A stretch of DNA of 64,000 bases from Candidatus Fermentithermobacillaceae bacterium (lineage in GTDB: Bacteria > Bacillota > Sulfobacillia > Fermentithermobacillales > Fermentithermobacillaceae): contig JAGPNG010000001.1 in NCBI GenBank assembly GCA_018052475.1, positions 19,506 to 83,505 of the forward strand. Reading direction: 5' to 3'. Made by a program: the position numbers and the translations under genes. This document shows, one piece after another, positions 19,569-34,406 of this stretch. The notes beneath the pieces are model-generated. The model did no database searches, was not told the origin of the DNA, and was given only the letters and a program-made list of their open reading frames with translations. Within the stretch, counting starts at the first letter, position 1, and every line of letters begins with the position of its first letter.

Positions 19569-20618
19569 TTGTTGCGCTTCATGACACAAAAGAAAATGCT
19601 TGTTGCGATATTCTTTCTAATAGCAGTATTTCTATTCTTGAAATACATAATGCCCTACGTCGCCCCGTTCGCATTAGGCGCTTTCCTCGCTTTTTTGTTG
19701 GAACCCATAGTTACGTTTCTAGAGACGCACCTAAAAATGGGGCGGGGATGGGCAGCGATACTCTCGATGCTGATTTTTAGCGTAGTTGTTGGCTCGATAG
19801 TGGTATGGAGTTTTACAAGCCTAAGTACGGAACTAACAGATTTGTACGAACGACTACCTGAATACTATACCGAATTCATGGAAATAATGCGAGACGCTCT
19901 TGAAGTCACCGGCGAGCTCTCGAAGAACCTCCCGGAACCTTTGGCAAGTACCGTTCAAGGTCTGTGGAACAGCCTCTATGATGCTCTTTACGGCATCGTC
20001 ATAGGTGCCGGTGAGATGGTGAAGTCAGTTCCCGGGCTTTCTATTTCGGCGGTGTTTGCGGTGATTAGCACATATCTAATGATAAAAGACAAAGACCAGA
20101 TATATGAGTCTATAGGCCGTGCCATTCCCAAAGAGAGATTCGGCGCTTTCGTTACTACCGAAAATACCATTTTATCAAGCGTTTCGAAAGTAATCAGAGT
20201 CGAAATACTGCTTATCATACTTACTATGATCGTTAACGTAATAGGGCTTCGGATCATCGGGGCAAGATATGCAGTAGGGCTCGGCATTATCCTCGCAGTT
20301 CTCGATGTTATCCCGATAATAGGTCCGGGACTCATCTATATACCATGGATAATATATCATTTGGCTTGGGGTAGCGGGTATTTGGCCGTATACCTTATCG
20401 TTCTATATGGCGGGGTGTCACTACTGAGACAAATAGCTAGGACTAACATGATTGGAAAAGAAACCGGACTGCACCCGCTGGCGGCTCTCGTTTCCTTATA
20501 CCTGGGGTTCCGCCTTTTCGGAGGAATAGGAGTAATCTATGGACCGCTGGTAGCTGTTCTCCTGGCAGGTTTTCTTTCGCATGACCCTATAGATAGTGAA
20601 GGTGGTAGTGACGGTTGA
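19569..20618 (+). CDS. AI-2E family transporter (PerM-like membrane protein)
   Basis: The 349-residue protein has the AI-2E transporter family layout: two N-terminal membrane helices (about 8-45, with MPYVAPFALGAFLAFLLEP), a third helix, a soluble stretch with LSTELTDLYERLPEYY, and a C-terminal block of helices with GLGIILAVLDVIPIIGPG and IGKETGLHPLAALVSLYLG. Family members export diverse small molecules or act as Na+/H+ antiporters; the substrate cannot be read from sequence. The start is uncertain: tandem TTG codons at 19569 and 19572 follow GAAAGGGA closely, and ATG 19581 is possible. It is inserted between cdsA and dxr and overlaps dxr by 4 bases. Confidence 0.85.
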   Translation: MLRFMTQKKMLVAIFFLIAVFLFLKYIMPYVAPFALGAFLAFLLEPIVTFLETHLKMGRGWAAILSMLIFSVVVGSIVVWSFTSLSTELTDLYERLPEYYTEFMEIMRDALEVTGELSKNLPEPLASTVQGLWNSLYDALYGIVIGAGEMVKSVPGLSISAVFAVISTYLMIKDKDQIYESIGRAIPKERFGAFVTTENTILSSVSKVIRVEILLIILTMIVNVIGLRIIGARYAVGLGIILAVLDVIPIIGPGLIYIPWIIYHLAWGSGYLAVYLIVLYGGVSLLRQIARTNMIGKETGLHPLAALVSLYLGFRLFGGIGVIYGPLVAVLLAGFLSHDPIDSEGGSDG

Positions 20619-21781
20619 AAACGATATCTATTCTTGGTTCTACAGGATCCGTAGGTACGCAGGCATTAGACGTGATCAAAAACAGTTGTGACTTCAAAGT
20701 ACTGGGCCTTGCAGCACACAGCAACTGGAAACAAGTCCTTTGTCAGGCAAAAACTTTCGGAGCACGAGTTGTTGCCATATTTGACGAAAAAGCCGCGGAC
20801 GTGGCCGAGAGAGAAAAGGGGTCCTTAGGGCTAAAAGATCTTGAGATACTCAGCGGCTCAAAAGGGTTGTGCGATGTCGCGTCCATGCCTGAATGTGATC
20901 TAGCGCTCCATGCCATTCCCGGTTTCGATGGTGTAAAGCCACTTATAAGTTCGCTTGAAAGCAAAAAACAAGTGGCCTTGTCTGGGAAAGAAGCCCTTGT
21001 GTCGGCAGGCGAGATCGTTAAGACGTTCCTTGAATCAGACCCAAATGCAATCATACCGGTCGACTCCGAGCACTCGGCTGTTTTCCAATGCTTTTTGGGT
21101 GAGAATAAACGTAGCGTAGAGAACATCATTCTTACAGCATCAGGTGGAGCCTTGAGAGACCTTAGTCGTGAAGAACTACGCAAGGTTAAGCCTTCCGATA
21201 CTCTTCGGCACCCAACTTGGCAGATGGGAACAAAAGTTACTGTAGACTCCGCTACGCTTTTCAACAAAACCCTCGAGGTTATGGAAGCGCATTATCTCTT
21301 CGATATGCCCTACGATAGGATTAAAGTAGTCATTCATAGAGAAAGCATTGTGCATTCTATGGTATCCTTTAGAGACGGTAGCACGAAAGCACAGTTGGCA
21401 AATCCCGACATGCGCCTTCCGATCGCTTTTGCGCTCAATTTTCCGGAAAGGAAAAGAGGTGTGGTAGAAACCATAAATCCGGTTTTGGGCATCCTTACCT
21501 TTGAAGAACCGGATCTCGAACGGTTTCCCTGTCTAAACCTTGGATATGAAGCTGGACGCATGGGGGGTACCGCACCGTGCGTGTTATCCATCGCTGACGA
21601 AATCGTCGTAAGAAGTTTCTTGGCCGGGGAACTTTCTTTTACCGAAATATATGATGTACTAGAATCGGTTCTCGGTCAGTGTGAGCCTCATAAAGCTGAT
21701 TCCTTAGAATCCTTGGAATACGCGGCTCAATGGGCTGTATCCGAGACTAGAAAAATCATTGATGCTAGTATGAGAAGGTGA
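20615..21781 (+). CDS. dxr: 1-deoxy-D-xylulose 5-phosphate reductoisomerase
   Basis: Dxr (IspC) makes 2-C-methyl-D-erythritol 4-phosphate using NADPH, the committed step of the MEP isoprenoid route. The N-terminus has the Rossmann motif ISILGSTGSVGTQALDVI. The catalytic part shows NAIIPVDSEHSAVFQCFLG, ILTASGGALRDLSREEL, HPTWQMGTKVTVDSATLFNK and EVMEAHYLF. At 388 residues it is full length. The start is TTG 20615, overlapping the stop of the preceding transporter gene. ispG, a later enzyme of the same route, is two genes downstream. Confidence 0.97.
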   Translation: MKTISILGSTGSVGTQALDVIKNSCDFKVLGLAAHSNWKQVLCQAKTFGARVVAIFDEKAADVAEREKGSLGLKDLEILSGSKGLCDVASMPECDLALHAIPGFDGVKPLISSLESKKQVALSGKEALVSAGEIVKTFLESDPNAIIPVDSEHSAVFQCFLGENKRSVENIILTASGGALRDLSREELRKVKPSDTLRHPTWQMGTKVTVDSATLFNKTLEVMEAHYLFDMPYDRIKVVIHRESIVHSMVSFRDGSTKAQLANPDMRLPIAFALNFPERKRGVVETINPVLGILTFEEPDLERFPCLNLGYEAGRMGGTAPCVLSIADEIVVRSFLAGELSFTEIYDVLESVLGQCEPHKADSLESLEYAAQWAVSETRKIIDASMRR

Positions 21782-21785
21782 GACT

Positions 21786-22817
21786 TTGCTGCAAACTATC
21801 ATAGCCATAGTATGTCTAGGAATCTTGATAGTCCTACATGAACTTGGACACTTCCTAGCAGCTAGGAAATTCGGAGTATACATTCATGAATTCAGCGTAG
21901 GTTTTGGACCCAGACTCTTTTCGAAAAAAGGTGATGAGACAGAAGTATCCGTGAGACTAATCCCCCTAGGAGGATACGTGCGATTCGCAGGTGAAGAGGG
22001 TGCCGAAGACAATATAGACGAAGACATTCCAGAGGAAAGGCTGCTCAAATCTTTGCCGCCTATGAAGCGAGCATTGATCATGTTAGCAGGCCCACTTGCG
22101 AATCTCCTTGTAGCTATGGTTGCGTTTTTTTTGGTTCTATCATTCGTAGGAATCGCGAAGCCTACTACTGAGATCGCTGAGGTGGTAGTAGGATATCCGG
22201 CGTACGAAGTCGGCATCCAACCGGGGGATAAAATCGTTATGGTCGAGGATACTGAAATATCCGAATGGGCTGAGATGGTAGCCTTGGTCCAAAAAAGGAC
22301 TGGCATCCCAACAACTATCGTGGTGGAACGGCAGGGTAATCTTCTGACTTTTATTTTGACTCCCATTGATGTGTCAGGAACAGGTATCATAGGGGTAAAG
22401 GCCAAGGTAACGACTGTGCGTTTCGGCGTTTTGAAAGGCATTAAAGAGGCCTTTCTGGAAACTATCTATGTATCGGCAGCTTGGATTACGAGCGTTGCGA
22501 GCATGATAACAGGCGCGATTGCTCCCGAAGTGACCGGACCCGTAGGCATCAGCCAGATTCTGGGCGAGGCTGCTCGGCAGGGAATCGGAACGCTTCTTTA
22601 TGTTCTCGGGTTTCTTTCCGCGAATTTCGCATTGATCAATCTCTTGCCAATACCTGCTCTTGATGGAAGTCGTCTTTTGTTTGTTGCGGTTGAAGGTATT
22701 CGTGGGAAGCCGATTGACCCTGCGAAGGAGAACATCATCCACTTCATAGGATTTTTCTTGCTTATGGTGTTATTCATTGTGATCACATACAAAGATATAC
22801 TGCGTTTGGTTGGTTGA
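21786..22817 (+). CDS. rseP: RIP metalloprotease RseP (site-2 protease)
   Basis: RseP/RasP is an intramembrane zinc protease that cleaves anti-sigma factors and leftover signal peptides. The zinc motif HELGH is at residues 18-22 in the first helix. A PDZ domain follows (about 115-200, with EVGIQPGDKIVMVED). The second active-site motif is in NLLPIPALDGSRLLF near the C-terminus, and at least four membrane helices are visible. At 343 residues it carries one PDZ domain, as in Gram-positives. It starts with TTG 4 bases after dxr. No cognate anti-sigma gene is adjacent. Confidence 0.95.
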   Translation: MLQTIIAIVCLGILIVLHELGHFLAARKFGVYIHEFSVGFGPRLFSKKGDETEVSVRLIPLGGYVRFAGEEGAEDNIDEDIPEERLLKSLPPMKRALIMLAGPLANLLVAMVAFFLVLSFVGIAKPTTEIAEVVVGYPAYEVGIQPGDKIVMVEDTEISEWAEMVALVQKRTGIPTTIVVERQGNLLTFILTPIDVSGTGIIGVKAKVTTVRFGVLKGIKEAFLETIYVSAAWITSVASMITGAIAPEVTGPVGISQILGEAARQGIGTLLYVLGFLSANFALINLLPIPALDGSRLLFVAVEGIRGKPIDPAKENIIHFIGFFLLMVLFIVITYKDILRLVG

Positions 22818-22859
22818 AACATTTCAGGCTAGCTCTCAACGCCAAGATAGGATGATACT

Positions 22860-23954
22860 ATGGCAAATGCTCAAGACCTGTTTGAGAGAAGGAAAAGTAG
22901 GCCCGTTAGATGTGGCAATCTAACGATTGGGGGAAACGCCAAGATCTCTATTCAGACTATGGCAAAAACAGATACGCGTGATATAAAAGCGACGGTAGAG
23001 GAGATTCGAGAGGCGGTATCTGCAGGTGCCGATATCGTCCGCCTAGCGGTCGTAGATGAAGAGGCCGCGCGGGCAATAAAGCACATCAAGGAACAAGTAA
23101 CGTGTCCAATCGTAGCAGATATTCACTTCGACTACAGATTGGCTATGTTGGCTCTGGAGTCCGGCTCTGACAAGGTCAGGGTCAATCCAGGCAATATTGG
23201 CAGCAAAGAGAGGCTGCTCGAGGTCGCAAGAAAAGCCCAATCCATGGGTGCAGCTGTCCGATTAGGGGTAAACTCAGGATCGCTTGAGAAGGATATTTTG
23301 GAAACCTACGGTTCACCCTGTGCCGAAGCAATGGTTGAAAGCGCGAAACGTCATGTTTCTTTCCTCCTAGATAACGGCATAGAAGGAGCAGTTATCTCGC
23401 TCAAATCGTCTAGCGTAAAAGAAACGATCAGGGCATACAGCATGATGGCTTCCTACACCGATTGGCCATTCCACATCGGAGTGACAGAAACAGGTCCCGG
23501 GTATCTCGGCGTAGCCAAGTCTGCGGCAGGAATCGGTACCCTGCTTACCTTAGGGATTGGAGATACGGTAAGAGTCTCTCTCACCGGACCTGCTCGTGAA
23601 GAGGTAGTAGTTGCAAAGGCAATCTTGCAATCTCTCGAACTGGGCACCTTTGGTCCAGATATAATATCTTGTCCGACGTGCGGACGCACAGAAATAGATA
23701 TCATACACATAGCCGAAGCAGTTGCAGACGGACTTAAAGACCTAAAGACGCCTATCAAAGTTGCAATCATGGGCTGTCCGGTGAACGGCCCCGGGGAAGC
23801 AAGGGAAGCAGACATCGGAGTCGCTTGTGGACGCGAGGGGGGCATTTTGTTCTCTTATGGCAAGCCTATAGGTAGAGTTTCTCACGACGAGATAGTAGAT
23901 ACCCTTTTGAGATTAGCTAAGACATATCCACGTTATCCGGAGGGAGAGAATTGA
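22860..23954 (+). CDS. ispG: 4-hydroxy-3-methylbut-2-enyl diphosphate synthase
   Basis: IspG is the [4Fe-4S] enzyme that converts ME-cPP to HMBPP in the MEP pathway. The N-terminal TIM-barrel part includes IGGNAKISIQTMAKTDTRD and CPIVADIHFDYRLAM. The C-terminal iron-sulfur part has ISCPTCGRTEIDI and MGCPVNGPGEAREADIG, which supply the cluster cysteines. Length 364 is normal for the bacterial form. ATG 22860 follows a 42-base gap, and the stop overlaps the TTG of polC. Confidence 0.97.
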   Translation: MANAQDLFERRKSRPVRCGNLTIGGNAKISIQTMAKTDTRDIKATVEEIREAVSAGADIVRLAVVDEEAARAIKHIKEQVTCPIVADIHFDYRLAMLALESGSDKVRVNPGNIGSKERLLEVARKAQSMGAAVRLGVNSGSLEKDILETYGSPCAEAMVESAKRHVSFLLDNGIEGAVISLKSSSVKETIRAYSMMASYTDWPFHIGVTETGPGYLGVAKSAAGIGTLLTLGIGDTVRVSLTGPAREEVVVAKAILQSLELGTFGPDIISCPTCGRTEIDIIHIAEAVADGLKDLKTPIKVAIMGCPVNGPGEAREADIGVACGREGGILFSYGKPIGRVSHDEIVDTLLRLAKTYPRYPEGEN

Positions 23955-26900
23955 GTCGTACGGTAGTGAAGCCATCTTGTTCCAACTTCACGTTGGAGCA
24001 GATGGCGCGAACTCTGAATCTTGATTTAGATGATGTTGTAGGAAGTCTTGAGATATCTTCAATAACTGTTGACACGAAGAACGCAGCATGGTGTATTTTT
24101 GTCGAGATCCCTGATACTGAGGTCTGGGCAAAAAAGGCATCGCGCATCACAATAGATGAGTTTGAGATGTGTTTGTCAACCATAGGGCAAGAAATAAGGA
24201 ACTCTGTGTCGACGCTATCTACGGTATCATGGGAGTTTTCCAAAGAATATGAAAAGTACTTCTCTAAGGAGTCCCGAAGATCGAGCAACGGGGATAGCGC
24301 AGGCAGTAATGAGAAACAAAGAGACGTATTGATCGGAAGGCCCATCCGTACGGAACCTATTCCTATAAAGGACATAACCGGAGGAGAAAAAGGGGCCGTA
24401 ACAGTACTGGGAATGGTAGTAGACGTCTCATGGAAGCAAACCCAATCTGGCGGCTTCTGCGGCATCATAGTTGTGACTGACAACAGTGACTCTATTAGCA
24501 TGAGGATCTTTCCGGGAGAACAAAAGATACAAGAGATCAAGGAAGGCATTTGGGTCTTAGCGAGAGGTAGAATCCGGATAGATCGTATGGATTCGGAACC
24601 AACGCTCATGTGCAGCGATCTTTGCATTGCCAACCCCAAGGTGAGACAAGATGAATCGGAGGATAAACGTGTAGAACTCCACCTGCACACAAAGATGTCA
24701 GCACTTGATTCCGTCTTAGACCTCGAAAAAGCTATCTCCACTGCAGCTCGTTGGGGGCACCCTGCAATCGCCATTACAGATCACGGAGTAGTTCAGGCGT
24801 TCCCTGAAGCATACCGATTAGGAGCCAAGTATGGCATCAAGGTAATCCTTGGTTTGGAGGGCTATCTGGTCGAGGAAAATGCAAAAGATCAGGCCTTTCA
24901 CATTATCCTTCTTGCCCGCAACAAAACGGGGCTGAGGAATTTGTACGAAATCGTCACGTTGTCACACCTTGAGCATTTTTACAGGACTCCCAGAATACCC
25001 AGGCAATGTCTTAACGACAAACGAGAGGGCATTATAGTCGGCTCAGCTTGTGAAGCAGGTGAGTTATACAGGGCAATCGTTTCAGGCAAAAGTGACCGGG
25101 AGTTAGAAGATATAGCCAACTTCTACGATTACCTTGAGATCCAACCCCTTGATAACAATGCCTTCTTGGTAGATGCAGGAGAGATTCCCGACCGTGAATC
25201 TCTCGCCGATATTAATAGAAGAATCTACAGTTTGAGCAAAAAGCTTGGCAAACCATGTGTTGCGACTGGGGACGTACATTTCGTGGAGCCCGAGGACGAG
25301 ATTTACAGGACTTTGCTTCTTGCGGGCAAAGGAATGAGTGAGAACGGCGAACGCCCGAGCCCTTTGTACCTTAGGACTACTGATGAACTGTTGAGTGAAT
25401 TCTCCGGCTATCTAGGCATAGAAGGTGCAAGAGAAGTAGTGATCGAGAATCCTCAATCTATCTCGGCTTTGGTCGAGAATTTGGCGCCTATACCAGAAGG
25501 TTTCTTTTACCCAACTCTTGAGGATTCTGATCGAATACTCATGGATCTTACTCAAAAGGGTGCACAGAATATCTATGGGGAAGATCTGCCCGAAATCGTT
25601 GAGCAAAGGATCAATAAGGAACTTTCCGCCATTATTGACAACGGTTTTTCTTCTTTGTACCTTATCGCAGTTAAAATGGTAGAAAAATCTAACTCTGACG
25701 GATACCTAGTTGGCTCCCGGGGATCTGTCGGCTCATCGCTTGTTGCACGACTCACGGGCATTACTGAGGTCAACCCATTACCGCCGCATTATGTATGTCC
25801 CAATTGTCATTTCAGCGAGTTTATAGACGACCCTGCTTGCCATTCAGGATTCGATTTGCCGTCTGCACAATGTCCCAAATGTGGCGCGAATCTCGCAAAA
25901 GATGGACAGAACATCCCTTTTGAAACTTTCATGGGGTTTAGAGGTGAAAAGGTACCCGATATCGACTTGAATTTCTCCGGTGAAGAACAAAGCGAAATGT
26001 TCAAATTCGCGTCAAAATTGCTGGGCAAAAAGAACGTGTATAGGGCAGGTACTATTGGTACCATCGGCACAAAAACAGCTTTTGGGTTCGTCAAACACTA
26101 TAGCGAAAGCACAGGTAGATCATTCAGAAGGGCAGAAGAACTGAGACTGTCTAAAGGGATAGAAGGAGTAAAGAGGACTACCGGACAACATCCCGGGGGG
26201 ATCATGGTAATACCCCAGGGAATGGAGGTGCTTGACTTCACACCTCTTCAGTACCCTGCCGATGATCGAAAGTCAGGCTCCATAACGACTCACTTTGATT
26301 ACAGCGCCATTTCGGGCCATCTAGTTAAGCTAGACATCCTTGGACATGACGATCCTACCGTACTCAAGATCCTTGGCGAGATTACAGGCATAGATCCTAT
26401 TTCCATACCTATGGATGACCCTGAAACCTTGGCACTTTTTTCTGGAGAAAACCCTGATGCGGTAATGGGGATTCCCGAATTTGGCACGAGGTTTGTAAGG
26501 AACATGCTATCTGAAACGAGACCCAAGTGTTTCGCAGATCTAGTTAGGATTTCAGGGCTTTCCCATGGAACTGACGTGTGGGCGAACAATGCCAGAGAGC
26601 TAATTCGTGAGAACCTTGCCACTCTTGACCAAGTCATTGCCACCCGTGAAGATATATTCTTGTATCTGATGGAACTGGGGCTGGAATCTTCTTTAGCGTT
26701 TGGAATAGCGGAAAAGGTGAGAAAAGGAGTTCCGTTATCAAGTGAAGACATCGCAATGATGAAGTCTGTGTCGGTGCCAGACTGGTATATCGGTTCATGC
26801 AGAAAGATCAGCTACTTGTTTCCAAAGGCGCATGCTGTCGCGTATGTTACGAACTCATTTAGGATAGCATATTACAAAGTCCATCATCCACTAGCCTTCT

Positions 26901-27340
26901 ATTCGACATATTTTTCGTTTGCAGGCTCATCTTTGACCACCGAGTACATGTACTTAGAACCTACAGAATGGAAAGAGTATATACAGAAGGTGAATGCCAA
27001 TTCTACCGCGACAGCAAAAGAACAGGATATTGCCAGTGCTCTGGAACTTGCCATAGAGATGTTCGAAAGAGGATTTCGTTTCGGGCGGTGTGATCTTTAT
27101 ATCTCCCAGGTGTCACGATACATACCTCAAGGTTCTGAACTCATCCCTCCCTTTACTGCCATCCCCGGAATCGGTAATCAAGCTGCTTCTTCAATCGTGA
27201 AGGCAAGGGAAGAGGGAGCCTTTGAATCCGTAGAGGACTTTAGGAAGCGGACCGGAGTCGGCAAAAGAGTTTGTGAAACGATGAAAGAACACGGCCTGTT
27301 CCTTGGGCTGCCTGAAACGGCTCAACTGCCATTATTCTAG
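23951..27340 (+). CDS. polC: DNA polymerase III PolC-type alpha subunit lacking the exonuclease insertion
   Basis: This is the replicative polymerase of low-GC Gram-positives, but short: 1129 residues against about 1400-1440. Visible parts are an N-terminal domain (1-135), an OB-fold (about 148-228), and a PHP domain opening with RVELHLHTKMSALDSV and AIAITDHGVVQAFPEAY. The polymerase core has zinc cysteines C616, C619, C641 and C644, and PDIDLNFSGE with D670 and D672. A C-terminal helix-hairpin-helix (IPGIGNQAASSIVKA) completes it. In usual PolC a DEDD 3'-5' exonuclease of ~180 residues splits the PHP domain after a segment like GLEGYLVEE. Here GLEGYLVEENAKDQAFHIIL runs straight on, and no DxETTG-type motif occurs. 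Proofreading must be lost or supplied in trans. The start is TTG 23951, overlapping the ispG stop. Confidence 0.95.
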   Translation: MSRTVVKPSCSNFTLEQMARTLNLDLDDVVGSLEISSITVDTKNAAWCIFVEIPDTEVWAKKASRITIDEFEMCLSTIGQEIRNSVSTLSTVSWEFSKEYEKYFSKESRRSSNGDSAGSNEKQRDVLIGRPIRTEPIPIKDITGGEKGAVTVLGMVVDVSWKQTQSGGFCGIIVVTDNSDSISMRIFPGEQKIQEIKEGIWVLARGRIRIDRMDSEPTLMCSDLCIANPKVRQDESEDKRVELHLHTKMSALDSVLDLEKAISTAARWGHPAIAITDHGVVQAFPEAYRLGAKYGIKVILGLEGYLVEENAKDQAFHIILLARNKTGLRNLYEIVTLSHLEHFYRTPRIPRQCLNDKREGIIVGSACEAGELYRAIVSGKSDRELEDIANFYDYLEIQPLDNNAFLVDAGEIPDRESLADINRRIYSLSKKLGKPCVATGDVHFVEPEDEIYRTLLLAGKGMSENGERPSPLYLRTTDELLSEFSGYLGIEGAREVVIENPQSISALVENLAPIPEGFFYPTLEDSDRILMDLTQKGAQNIYGEDLPEIVEQRINKELSAIIDNGFSSLYLIAVKMVEKSNSDGYLVGSRGSVGSSLVARLTGITEVNPLPPHYVCPNCHFSEFIDDPACHSGFDLPSAQCPKCGANLAKDGQNIPFETFMGFRGEKVPDIDLNFSGEEQSEMFKFASKLLGKKNVYRAGTIGTIGTKTAFGFVKHYSESTGRSFRRAEELRLSKGIEGVKRTTGQHPGGIMVIPQGMEVLDFTPLQYPADDRKSGSITTHFDYSAISGHLVKLDILGHDDPTVLKILGEITGIDPISIPMDDPETLALFSGENPDAVMGIPEFGTRFVRNMLSETRPKCFADLVRISGLSHGTDVWANNARELIRENLATLDQVIATREDIFLYLMELGLESSLAFGIAEKVRKGVPLSSEDIAMMKSVSVPDWYIGSCRKISYLFPKAHAVAYVTNSFRIAYYKVHHPLAFYSTYFSFAGSSLTTEYMYLEPTEWKEYIQKVNANSTATAKEQDIASALELAIEMFERGFRFGRCDLYISQVSRYIPQGSELIPPFTAIPGIGNQAASSIVKAREEGAFESVEDFRKRTGVGKRVCETMKEHGLFLGLPETAQLPLF

Positions 27341-27344
27341 CCTT

Positions 27345-27899
27345 CTAATCAGGGGCGATCACTTGACTTCTAACAGCCATCTTCGTGACAGGAATGTATA
27401 TGAGTTTGAGGACATATGAATACAGGACGGTCTCTATTGCGCCTGATATGAGTCGGGGCGGCATGATTATCCTATAGCTCATCCCGTACAGATAGTTGAG
27501 GAAATATGGGGTAAGACCGCAAGAGACAAGCGCGATACCAGAAAACACTGCAGCAAACAGATGCGAGAACGGGATGCTCGTCTTTTCCTTATCTCGGTTC
27601 AACAATCTCACCACAACGCCAGGAATAGTTCCCATAAGTGCAGAACAAAGAGTAAAATGCGGCATGTAACCTGGCCCCATAGGGCTCAATATGAATCCGA
27701 TTATATCAGCAAGAGCACCTGAAATCGCTCCGTACAATGGCCCCAACAATATACTCGCCATGATATTAGGCAGAGCACCGAAACCAATGCGGATTGCTTC
27801 GATGCCTCCTATGACCAGTCTAAAGGATGCAAATCTGGTCAGAATAACAGATAATGCTATGAATAAGCTGGTAACCACAAGAGATCGTGTGCGTGACAT
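27345..27899 (-). CDS. ECF transporter S component, FolT-like
   Basis: The 184-residue membrane protein has about five or six helices and the S-component pattern: a start of TRSLVVTSLFIALSVILTRF, IRIGFGALPNIMASILLGPL, then YGAISGALADIIGFILSPMG and GYMPHFTLCSALMGTIPG. This combination resembles the folate-specific FolT group; substrate specificity is inferred from that resemblance only. The energising EcfA/EcfT module is not nearby. GGGAGGATTAGGTA precedes the ATG on the minus strand. It converges on polC with only 4 bases between the stops and no visible terminator. I see no THF riboswitch upstream. Confidence 0.75.
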   Translation of the reverse strand: MSRTRSLVVTSLFIALSVILTRFASFRLVIGGIEAIRIGFGALPNIMASILLGPLYGAISGALADIIGFILSPMGPGYMPHFTLCSALMGTIPGVVVRLLNRDKEKTSIPFSHLFAAVFSGIALVSCGLTPYFLNYLYGMSYRIIMPPRLISGAIETVLYSYVLKLIYIPVTKMAVRSQVIAPD

Positions 27900-30158: not shown

Positions 30159-31115
30159 ATGGAGACCACAGTAGTTGCTCTAGGCGGAAACGCCATATTA
30201 CAGAAAGGCGACAAAGGAACAGCAGAAGATCAAAGAAGAAATGTGGAAAAGACGGCGGAACAGCTTGTGAGACTTGTTGAGAAGGGGTATCGCCTGATCA
30301 TCACCCACGGCAACGGACCGCAAGTAGGGAACATACTTATACAAAATGAGGCTGCCAAAAACGAGGTCCCACAGATGCCAATGGACATTTGTGGTGCCCA
30401 AAGCCAGGGTATGATCGGATACATGCTTCAGATGTACATGCACAACAGCTTGAAACGCCGAAATCTCGACGTGCCTGTTGCCACAATCGTGACTCAGACC
30501 CTCGTGAACGCCGAAGATCCTGCATTTGCGAATCCTACCAAACCAGTTGGACCGTTTTGTTCAGAAGAATGGGCTAAAGAACGTATGAAGACTCACGGAG
30601 AAAAATGGATAGAAGACTCCGGTCGAGGATGGCGACGTGTAGTACCGTCTCCGGATCCGATATCTATTGTGGAATTGCCATCAATCAAGTCTCTAGTGGA
30701 TAGCGGCCATATCGTAATCTGCACCGGAGGCGGTGGTATTCCGGTTGTAAAAAGTGATGACGGTCTGCTACAAGGCGTAGAGGCGGTCATTGACAAAGAT
30801 CTTGGGGCGGAAAGACTGGCAACCCTACTGGGCGCTGACAATCTTGTGATCCTTACGGATGTTAACGGCGCTGCTCTTAACTACAAGACCCCTGACGGCA
30901 GGGTTTGGTTGGGGGAGACAAACTTGCCGGAACTCGCCGAGTTTCTCAAACAGGGACATTTCCTCTCAGGAAGCATGGCACCTAAAGTTCGTGCGATAAT
31001 CCGGTTCATTCAAAATGGCGGAAAGATGGCGGTTATAGCTTCCCTCGATAAAGTAGAAGAAGCCGTTGAAGGAAAGACTGGGACCAGACTGAGAGGGAAT
31101 GTAAAGAACCAGTAG
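30159..31115 (+). CDS. arcC: Carbamate kinase
   Basis: Carbamate kinase interconverts carbamoyl phosphate plus ADP with carbamate plus ATP. The 318-residue sequence is typical: TVVALGGNAILQKGDKGTAE at the start, IITHGNGPQVGNILIQNE, MDICGAQSQGMIGYMLQ, ICTGGGGIPVV, IDKDLGAERLATLLGADNLV, LTDVNGAALNY and the SMAPKVRAIIRFI segment. No arcA, arcB or other arginine, agmatine, purine or allantoin catabolic gene is adjacent, so the pathway is unclear. A strong terminator follows 11 bases after the stop. Confidence 0.95.
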   Translation: METTVVALGGNAILQKGDKGTAEDQRRNVEKTAEQLVRLVEKGYRLIITHGNGPQVGNILIQNEAAKNEVPQMPMDICGAQSQGMIGYMLQMYMHNSLKRRNLDVPVATIVTQTLVNAEDPAFANPTKPVGPFCSEEWAKERMKTHGEKWIEDSGRGWRRVVPSPDPISIVELPSIKSLVDSGHIVICTGGGGIPVVKSDDGLLQGVEAVIDKDLGAERLATLLGADNLVILTDVNGAALNYKTPDGRVWLGETNLPELAEFLKQGHFLSGSMAPKVRAIIRFIQNGGKMAVIASLDKVEEAVEGKTGTRLRGNVKNQ

Positions 31116-32456: not shown

Positions 32457-34406
32457 TCATTTGAGGTTCATGAGGCTGGAGTCGTCAAAAGTCATCTGTA
32501 TTTCGTGGGTTAAATCCAGTTCTTTTAGTTTTTGATAGAATGTGGTCCTGCCGATCTTGAGGATTTTCATGGCTTTTGTGTGGTTCCCGCCGCAGTATCG
32601 TATAGCCTGCAACATCGCGTTCCTCTCTGCATCTTTCCTAGCTTCTTCCAAGGTGATAGGGAAGACTGCAGGAATTTCCAAAACGCCAGAAGAATCGTCA
32701 GCCTGAATTCCAGGCGGCATATATCGGAGGTCAATTATACCATCGTCTGTGAGCACCGCCGCACGTTCCAATACGTTCTCAAGTTCCCTAACGTTGCCGG
32801 GCCATGGATAAGAGATCAACGCGCGTAAGCAGTCTTCCGTAATCCTCAAGCGCTTGTCGTACATGGCGGAATAGGCCTGCAGAAAAGTCTCTACAAGATC
32901 TATGATATCTTCGGGGCGTTCTCTCAGTGGAGGAATTTCAACAGAAAAGACGTTTAGTCGGTAGTATAGATCTTCTCTGAAACGTCCAGAATCTACAAGT
33001 TCGGCCAAGTTTTGATTAGTAGCTGCGATGATCCTCACATCAACCTTATTATGCGAATGAGAGCCTAGTGGTTGTACAGTACCTTCTTCGATAACATGCA
33101 GCAATTTGGCTTGACAAGACAAATCAAGTTCGGCGATTTCATCGAGTAATAACGTACCCCCGGATGCCTCATGGAATTTGCCTTTCTTACCTGTCCTCAG
33201 AGCACCCGTGAAAGAACCGGGTGCGTACCCAAACAACTCGCTTTCCATGAGCGAGGGCGGAACTGCCGCACAGTTTACCACCACAAAAGGCGCTCTGTTT
33301 CTAGGAGATGCGTGGTGGATAGCTCGTGCGAAAAGATTCTTCCCAGTACCGCTTTCCCCCAGCAGGAGGACATTGCACTTGGTAGGAGCGATTTTCTCGC
33401 ACAACGATATGCAATGTCTGATAGACTCGCTCCGCCCAAGAATTCTGGAAAACGCAGGGTGCGAAGACGGTGCCTTCCCGAGCTTCATACGCAATAGTGA
33501 GGCATAGCTGGCCATACCATCCGCTCGCTCCTCAAGTTCTTTCACCTCGACAACGTCCGTTAGCAGAACGCACACAAGCTTGCCCGACATCCCGTTGCAA
33601 GTGATTGGAGTGACGGCGTATCTTAAGGGAATGCCATTTATGAATCCCTCTTTGGGCCCTATGTGCGGAACCGCCCCGGAAAATACTCTAACTATGTCTG
33701 AACTATCTAGGCCTTCAGGGCAAATCTTCCAGAGTTTTTCGCCTACAATTTCCATCGATGCGATGCCATGTTCCTTAGCCCTGAATTCGTTCCCCAATAG
33801 GATGGATTTTGCGGATTCGCCTCTAGCCGTGTATCCGAGAGTTTGGTAGAACTTCACGACTAAAGTCTCGGGGTCACATATCACCATATGAGCTATAGCT
33901 ATTCTATAGTCAAAATCAAATCTCAAGCCATCCACACTTATGCTAGCTCTCTTTTCTACGCTCGACAGCCTGGCTGAAAGCTTGTGGGTTATACCATCTT
34001 TGCCAGGCCATAACCGATCAATTCCTAGGGGTTCAACGGAAGGCTGGCTTCTTTTTGAATATATTCCAGAGCCTGCAGGACCACCGTAAACGCCTATCGC
34101 TACAAGGGCGTCGCCCGACATTATCTTGGAGTCCGGAGAAACACCTATCAGTGATAGGTCTCTTGGAGTCAGTCCGCCATCGTCAGCACCCAATGAGCTG
34201 TTTACCAAAAGCACAATATCGCCGGGGGACACACTCCCTGCGCTGTGGCCGGGGCCCCAAGATTCTCCAAGCCCAAGAAGAGCAAGAGCTCTCTGGTTGG
34301 CCAAGAGTATCTCTCCGCCTTCTTGTACGACTATGACACCTTCGCGAAGCACATTAAAAACGTTTTCCAACAAACTATTCTTAGAGTCCATAAAACTGTT
34401 CCTCAC
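32457..34406 (-). CDS. Sigma-54-dependent transcriptional activator with sensory N-terminus
   Basis: The 649-residue protein has an N-terminal sensory part: one PAS-like stretch at ~10-65 (VLREGVIVVQEGGEILLANQ, ALALLGLG), a long middle region, and a second PAS-like block at ~175-290. Next is the AAA+ sigma-54 interaction domain (~320-545): Walker A GESGTGKN (350-357), ESELFGYAPGSFTGA, GGTLLLDEIAELDLSCQAKL, and RFREDLYYRLNVFSVEIPPL. A Fis-type HTH closes it (CGGNHTKAMKILKIGRTTF). The sigma-54 contact loop reads GSFTGA (397-402) instead of GAFTGA, a tolerated variant in some activators. No rpoN, no two-component partner and no obvious -24/-12 promoter lie nearby, so its target is unknown. An internal ATG (residue 6) could be the true start. 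Confidence 0.9.
   Translation of the reverse strand: MRNSFMDSKNSLLENVFNVLREGVIVVQEGGEILLANQRALALLGLGESWGPGHSAGSVSPGDIVLLVNSSLGADDGGLTPRDLSLIGVSPDSKIMSGDALVAIGVYGGPAGSGIYSKRSQPSVEPLGIDRLWPGKDGITHKLSARLSSVEKRASISVDGLRFDFDYRIAIAHMVICDPETLVVKFYQTLGYTARGESAKSILLGNEFRAKEHGIASMEIVGEKLWKICPEGLDSSDIVRVFSGAVPHIGPKEGFINGIPLRYAVTPITCNGMSGKLVCVLLTDVVEVKELEERADGMASYASLLRMKLGKAPSSHPAFSRILGRSESIRHCISLCEKIAPTKCNVLLLGESGTGKNLFARAIHHASPRNRAPFVVVNCAAVPPSLMESELFGYAPGSFTGALRTGKKGKFHEASGGTLLLDEIAELDLSCQAKLLHVIEEGTVQPLGSHSHNKVDVRIIAATNQNLAELVDSGRFREDLYYRLNVFSVEIPPLRERPEDIIDLVETFLQAYSAMYDKRLRITEDCLRALISYPWPGNVRELENVLERAAVLTDDGIIDLRYMPPGIQADDSSGVLEIPAVFPITLEEARKDAERNAMLQAIRYCGGNHTKAMKILKIGRTTFYQKLKELDLTHEIQMTFDDSSLMNLK

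Follow-up and report, generated by a model that had tools for sequence, protein, structure and literature searches.

An orthologous PolC without a DEDD exonuclease and with a complete PHP metal site in Candidatus Fermentithermobacillaceae

The window, by which we mean the whole 64,000-nucleotide stretch of DNA analysed here, encodes an orthologous PolC that lacks the DEDD exonuclease (Exo). Sequence comparison and analogy with characterised polymerases suggest that the Exo was lost, that proofreading is probably performed in cis by the PHP domain, and that a co-encoded DnaE probably shares the replication work. Standard accounts present PolC as proofreading by means of a DEDD domain of its own, and the Exo is truly absent from the protein studied here. 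The original prediction of a distinct replicase architecture is true in fact, but the architecture was already known: PolC without the Exo insertion was published in 2013 from Clostridia and Negativicutes (Timinskas et al., 2013; PMC3919608), and the window protein is of this type.

Results

A single polC in a conserved neighbourhood

The gene, its upstream neighbours and the features of its product are listed below with the evidence for each.

20615..23954, + strand: dxr, rseP and ispG, directly 5' of polC; conserved polC neighbourhood.
23951..27340, + strand: polC, Exo-less PolC-type DNA polymerase III alpha subunit, 1129 residues; open frame, PRK00448/TIGR01405, PDB 3f2b/3f2c.
23951..24262, + strand: N-terminal alpha/beta domain, residues 1-104, one subdomain, weakly KH-II/RbfA-like; AF2 models, Foldseek, VIA.
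24347..24643, + strand: OB domain, residues 133-231; AF2 model against OB-fold chains, Z about 12.
24668..25333, + strand: PHP domain, residues 240-461, uninterrupted; Pfam PHP 1e-34, nine metal ligands.
24866..24898, + strand: short turn, residues 306-316, at the DEDD exonuclease site of other PolCs; phmmer break, insert length, model.
25523..26920, + strand: palm/thumb/fingers core with catalytic D670, D672 and D795; DNA_pol3_alpha and finger domains.
25796..25882, + strand: zinc finger C616/C619/C641/C644; invariant in two PolC alignments.
26432..26476, + strand: order-specific 11-residue deletion in the fingers segment, residues 828-842; PolC alignment.
27098..27307, + strand: helix-hairpin-helix (HhH) region, residues 1050-1119; Pfam HHH_6 7e-11.
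27323..27337, + strand: C-terminal QLPLF, beta-clamp-binding motif type; sequence.

The polC gene starts with a TTG codon that overlaps the stop codon of ispG. Its product matches the NCBIfam models PRK00448 at 1356 bits (cut-off 873) and TIGR01405 at 1250 bits (cut-off 1043), and its best PDB match is the PolC of 3f2b/3f2c (Z 50); these curated models, the zinc-finger and palm motifs, the OB domain before the PHP domain and the C-terminal HhH region identify it as PolC-type. The order dxr-rseP-ispG precedes Exo-containing and Exo-less polC alike in many named Bacillota genomes, and the window gene is therefore the orthologous polC and no stray copy. A search of the source genome (1.40 Mb in 23 contigs, 92.6% complete) for a second full-length polC returned exactly one PolC match, alongside one DnaE match, and a second polC was thus rejected. 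The nearest named record, from Candidatus Fermentithermobacillaceae (locus L064), is 87% identical to the window protein. On the minus strand, a gene for an ECF transporter S component (27345-27899) is convergent with polC and ends a few bases from its stop codon; a sigma-54-dependent activator that combines PAS and AAA domains with a Fis-type HTH (32457-34406, minus strand) lies near an amino-acid-kinase-family gene (30159-31115). The skew at four-fold sites in the genes of the window, considered as a possible pointer to PolC use, was weak and gave no information.

The 1129-residue frame does contain the intact PHP domain, polymerase zinc finger, D670/D672 and HhH region that had been predicted, and D795 can be added as the third catalytic aspartate. 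The four zinc-finger cysteines and the three aspartates are invariant across 26 Exo-less PolCs, as are Q1125 and F1129, the two ends of the C-terminal QLPLF, which we take to be of the beta-clamp-binding motif type of C-family polymerases. The fingers segment is 14 residues long, compared with about 25 in other PolCs; this 11-residue deletion is shared by every PolC of the family and order whose sequence spans the region (loci L004-L019) and is absent from every other PolC examined. The AlphaFold model of the whole protein has a mean pLDDT of 86.7. When the N-terminal domain was folded alone (pLDDT 77.6), its best match was RbfA in Foldseek (E 0.03) and its best Z in VIA was 5.2, with no DEDD-type exonuclease chain listed among the structure matches from either search. 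An exonuclease concealed within residues 1-240 was rejected, the N-terminal domain giving only this weak RbfA/KH-like match.

The exonuclease insert is absent

Alignment of the window PolC with the full-length E. faecium PolC (9qpc) by phmmer breaks at query residues 310/313, which correspond to residues 432/637 of the chain, so that about 200 residues have no counterpart in the window protein. The segment at the Exo site is 10 residues long, against about 195-215 in Exo-containing PolCs. In the AlphaFold model the PHP strands 297-307 and 316-322 are connected by a short turn; assignment of this turn, residues 306-316, as the vacated Exo site is consistent with cryo-EM, according to which the PolC Exo sits between PHP strands three and four (PMC12592400). 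The original prediction that PolC lacks its DEDD exonuclease is confirmed by the phmmer break, this model, the relatives described below and a Pfam search, in which RNase_T, DnaQ and RNase_H_2 gave no match to the protein at E<=1; the reported lack of a DxETTG motif also stands, no DxExxG occurring in the sequence. The description of GLEGYLVEE as fused directly to AFHIILLARN needs correction, as NAKDQ lies between them and the join is a 10-residue turn.

The window protein is 46-50% identical to canonical PolC (E. faecium 9qpc; G. kaustophilus 3f2b) over the OB, PHP, polymerase and HhH regions, with Z of 44-50, but it is without the approximately 200-residue DEDD exonuclease that full-length PolC carries in the PHP loop. 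The G. kaustophilus entry 3f2b is itself an engineered construct from which the Exo was removed for crystallisation (PMC12592400); the AlphaFold model matches it with a TMq of 0.83 and Z of 50, and the window protein looks like a naturally occurring counterpart of it. With no DEDDh exonuclease inserted in its PHP domain, the protein falls outside the canonical proofreading PolCs, and its genome, which pairs an insert-free PolC with a DnaE, has the combination that defines Exo-less PolC; the published type is likewise paired with DnaE (PMC3919608). The Exo-less PolCs of Clostridia and Negativicutes (Moorella, Desulfosporosinus, Anaerovibrio, Selenomonas) have the same OB-PHP-polymerase-HhH order, no Exo insert and, as in the window PolC, all nine PHP ligands intact. 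The PolCs of the window's order differ from these in the fingers deletion and in a divergent N-terminal domain.

Exo-less PolC is common among anaerobic Bacillota

All 13 same-family genomes and all 3 from the same order have a PolC without the Exo insert, and independent assemblies from within the genus, the family, the order and more distant groups show the same insert-free junction. PolC occurs in 214 of the 299 genomes of a phylum-wide sample. Among the 150 PolC matches listed, 83 are of Exo-less length and 63 of Exo-containing length; one of the 83 (genome G125) turned out to contain the Exo, the gene lying close to the end of its contig (locus L192). As these 150 come from a similarity ranking against an Exo-less query and would be biased if taken alone, all 214 serve as the denominator, which places the Exo-less share at no less than about 38% of the PolC-bearing genomes in the sample. 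This lower bound and the 2013 survey, in which Exo-less proteins made up 6% of PolCs and 16% of DnaE1-paired PolCs (PMC3919608), come from different samplings and do not allow direct comparison. The 60 loci that we fetched, mostly one per family, comprise 35 Exo-less and 25 Exo-containing genes. Exo-less PolC is common among anaerobic Bacillota. PolC itself seems often to have been lost in the class of the window genome, where about 11 of the sampled genomes have DnaE and lack a PolC-grade match (G017-G020, G026, G029, G030, G033, G036, G038 and G040).

One insertion and, apparently, repeated loss

On an 82-row PolC tree built with the insert columns left out, the Exo label changes 10 times, at least 4 of these changes being forced by starred branches. 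A tree that keeps all Exo-less PolCs together in one clade was rejected (AU p 8e-54; 48 rows, quick tree). The Exo domains of PolC group together against DinG-type Exo with support of 96/88, in a tree built without one further row and without the divergent PolC inserts of L142 and L032. This single grouping points to one insertion followed by losses, and together with the shared insertion point and the relic in L142 it favours loss over gain; the simplest reading of the sequences is apparently that the Exo was inserted once and lost repeatedly, and we infer that the label changes are losses.

Locus L142 (3497-7093 of JAAYIC010000112.1) encodes a PolC with a 195-residue insert at the Exo site from which the DEDDh motif residues have gone: VVFDTETTG has become VVLALGTTG, HNA.FD has become YNTGSGW, and HRA.D has become GRG.SV. 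Pfam no longer detects RNase_T in this insert, which, judged by its motifs, is a dead and decaying vestige of the Exo. The PHP ligands of the L142 protein are intact, and its sister, L069, lacks any such insert. The positions that separate Exo-less from Exo-containing PolCs lie beside the junction and at a few other places, and none is a metal ligand.

The PHP metal site is complete in Exo-less PolCs

Mapping from the ligand table of G. kaustophilus (Gka) PolC (PMC3666897) places the nine PHP ligands of the window protein at H244, H246, D253, H278, E303, H317, C367, D441 and H443, in agreement with the metal-site pattern HHDHEH[C/H]DH; Gka PolC itself has N743 where the window protein has D441. 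None of the nine is altered in any of the 96 complete Exo-less PolCs, against 54 of 71 Exo-containing proteins that keep the full set. Fifteen of the 17 altered proteins are from Bacilli and have asparagine in place of aspartate at the position of D441 (D->N). The 17 come mostly from one clade, so the association between PHP and Exo amounts to about three independent events. The other two Exo-containing proteins, L026 and L030, have ligand changes unlike those of Bacilli (HHNSEHCDH and HHDHEHTDH).

The nine-residue trinuclear PHP site of M. tuberculosis (Mtb) DnaE1 is a proofreading exonuclease that is inactivated by mutation of D226, and Gka PolC, with one altered PHP ligand, shows no exonuclease activity (PMC5636811). 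The window PolC has this nine-ligand site in common with Mtb DnaE1, and the same mode of proofreading is proposed for it, although the mycobacterial enzyme is of the DnaE type and the two are only about 24% identical (Mtb chain 7pu7). These observations are in keeping with the earlier suggestion that the PHP domain might still be a nuclease, its ligands being preserved throughout the complete Exo-less PolCs that were compared. Ligand conservation and precedent suggest that the site has catalytic activity and that this suffices for proofreading. The conserved ligands could serve stability instead, and since the PHP site is also intact in many Exo-containing PolCs, intactness alone is no proof of its use in proofreading.

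DnaE and separate DEDD proteins

The DnaE of the source genome carries the PHP residues HHDHEHCDH. These intact residues and a QMSLF-type motif, both read from the sequence, are unlike the published description of DnaE3; the protein may belong to the DnaE1 group. No RNase_T protein was found in the source genome or in the Exo-less genome G025. All 13 same-family relatives have at least one, usually a single protein on a frame of 840-980 residues; the one scanned in full is helicase-fused and best matches dinG_rel, a DinG-like exo-helicase. RNase_T proteins of similar size are present in Exo-containing genomes too. Further short DEDD proteins occur in 2 of the 13 same-family genomes (G002 and G006), and no stand-alone DnaQ/epsilon is consistent across the 13. 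The DinG-like gene is present in the congeners G001 and G002 and was not found in the source genome (G000); the contig that carries it in G002 is 4.7 kb long, and an assembly gap is possible for G000. As the source genome is 92.6% complete and lacks a gene that both congeners have, the absence of a DEDD protein from it is unproven.

Discussion

On the reading that we favour, an ancestral DEDD exonuclease in the PHP loop would have been lost, as repeatedly in anaerobic Bacillota; the trinuclear PHP metal site, with its nine ligands, would hydrolyse the mispaired primer 3' end in cis, as in Mycobacterium DnaE1; and the co-encoded DnaE, whose PHP site is also intact, would share the replication work. 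The foremost rival to PHP proofreading in cis gives the role of main, proofreading replicase to DnaE and makes Exo-less PolC an accessory polymerase freed from the need for DEDD proofreading, an idea raised for systems with PolC and DnaE1 by Timinskas et al. (2013; PMC3919608). The intact PHP site of the source-genome DnaE agrees with it, and in the roughly 11 sampled same-class genomes without a PolC-grade match DnaE alone suffices. We nevertheless consider it a possible but less probable account, as every same-family genome retains PolC, the neighbourhood of the gene is conserved, and the invariance of its polymerase and PHP active sites and clamp-motif ends does not resemble relaxed constraint.

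A separate DEDD exonuclease that proofreads in trans, either a stand-alone DnaQ or a DinG-like exo-helicase, is improbable. The presence of an RNase_T protein in all 13 family relatives could be taken in its favour, but the protein scanned is helicase-fused, its counterparts of similar size also accompany Exo-containing PolCs, and neither the source genome nor G025 yielded one; the extra short DEDD proteins are confined to two relatives. The original proposal that proofreading had moved to a separate protein is unsupported in this family. We regard as equally improbable its companion, that replicase proofreading was simply lost and the PHP domain kept for structure. The PHP domain of E. coli Pol III does have a structural role despite its lost ligands (PMC3666897), but in E. 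coli and Bacillaceae the ligands have changed where another exonuclease exists, whereas here none of the nine is changed in any of the 96 proteins. That an assembly deletion or misassembly took out the Exo is refuted by the relatives, the same junction occurring in independent assemblies with the frame intact; nothing was found in its favour, and its likelihood is negligible.

We lean, somewhat cautiously, towards the broader view that Bacillota may have discarded the inserted DEDD proofreader of PolC on many occasions, with the PHP site left in every case as the sole proofreader in cis. PHP-only proofreading would then be a major mode among bacteria with PolC and no rarity, and L142, whose dead Exo stands beside an intact PHP site, would be a living intermediate. 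To what was known in 2013 our analysis adds a share of at least about 38%, an apparent single insertion with recurrent loss, the L142 relic, the contrast in intact ligands between Exo-less and Exo-containing PolCs and the lack of a consistent epsilon in the family. Natural Exo-less PolCs and the Exo relic of L142 offer a clean test system for PHP proofreading by PolC. If a large share of anaerobic Bacillota rely on a PolC whose one nuclease is the PHP domain, their replication fidelity and mutation spectra, and the way in which PolC and DnaE divide the work, may be unlike those of Bacillus.
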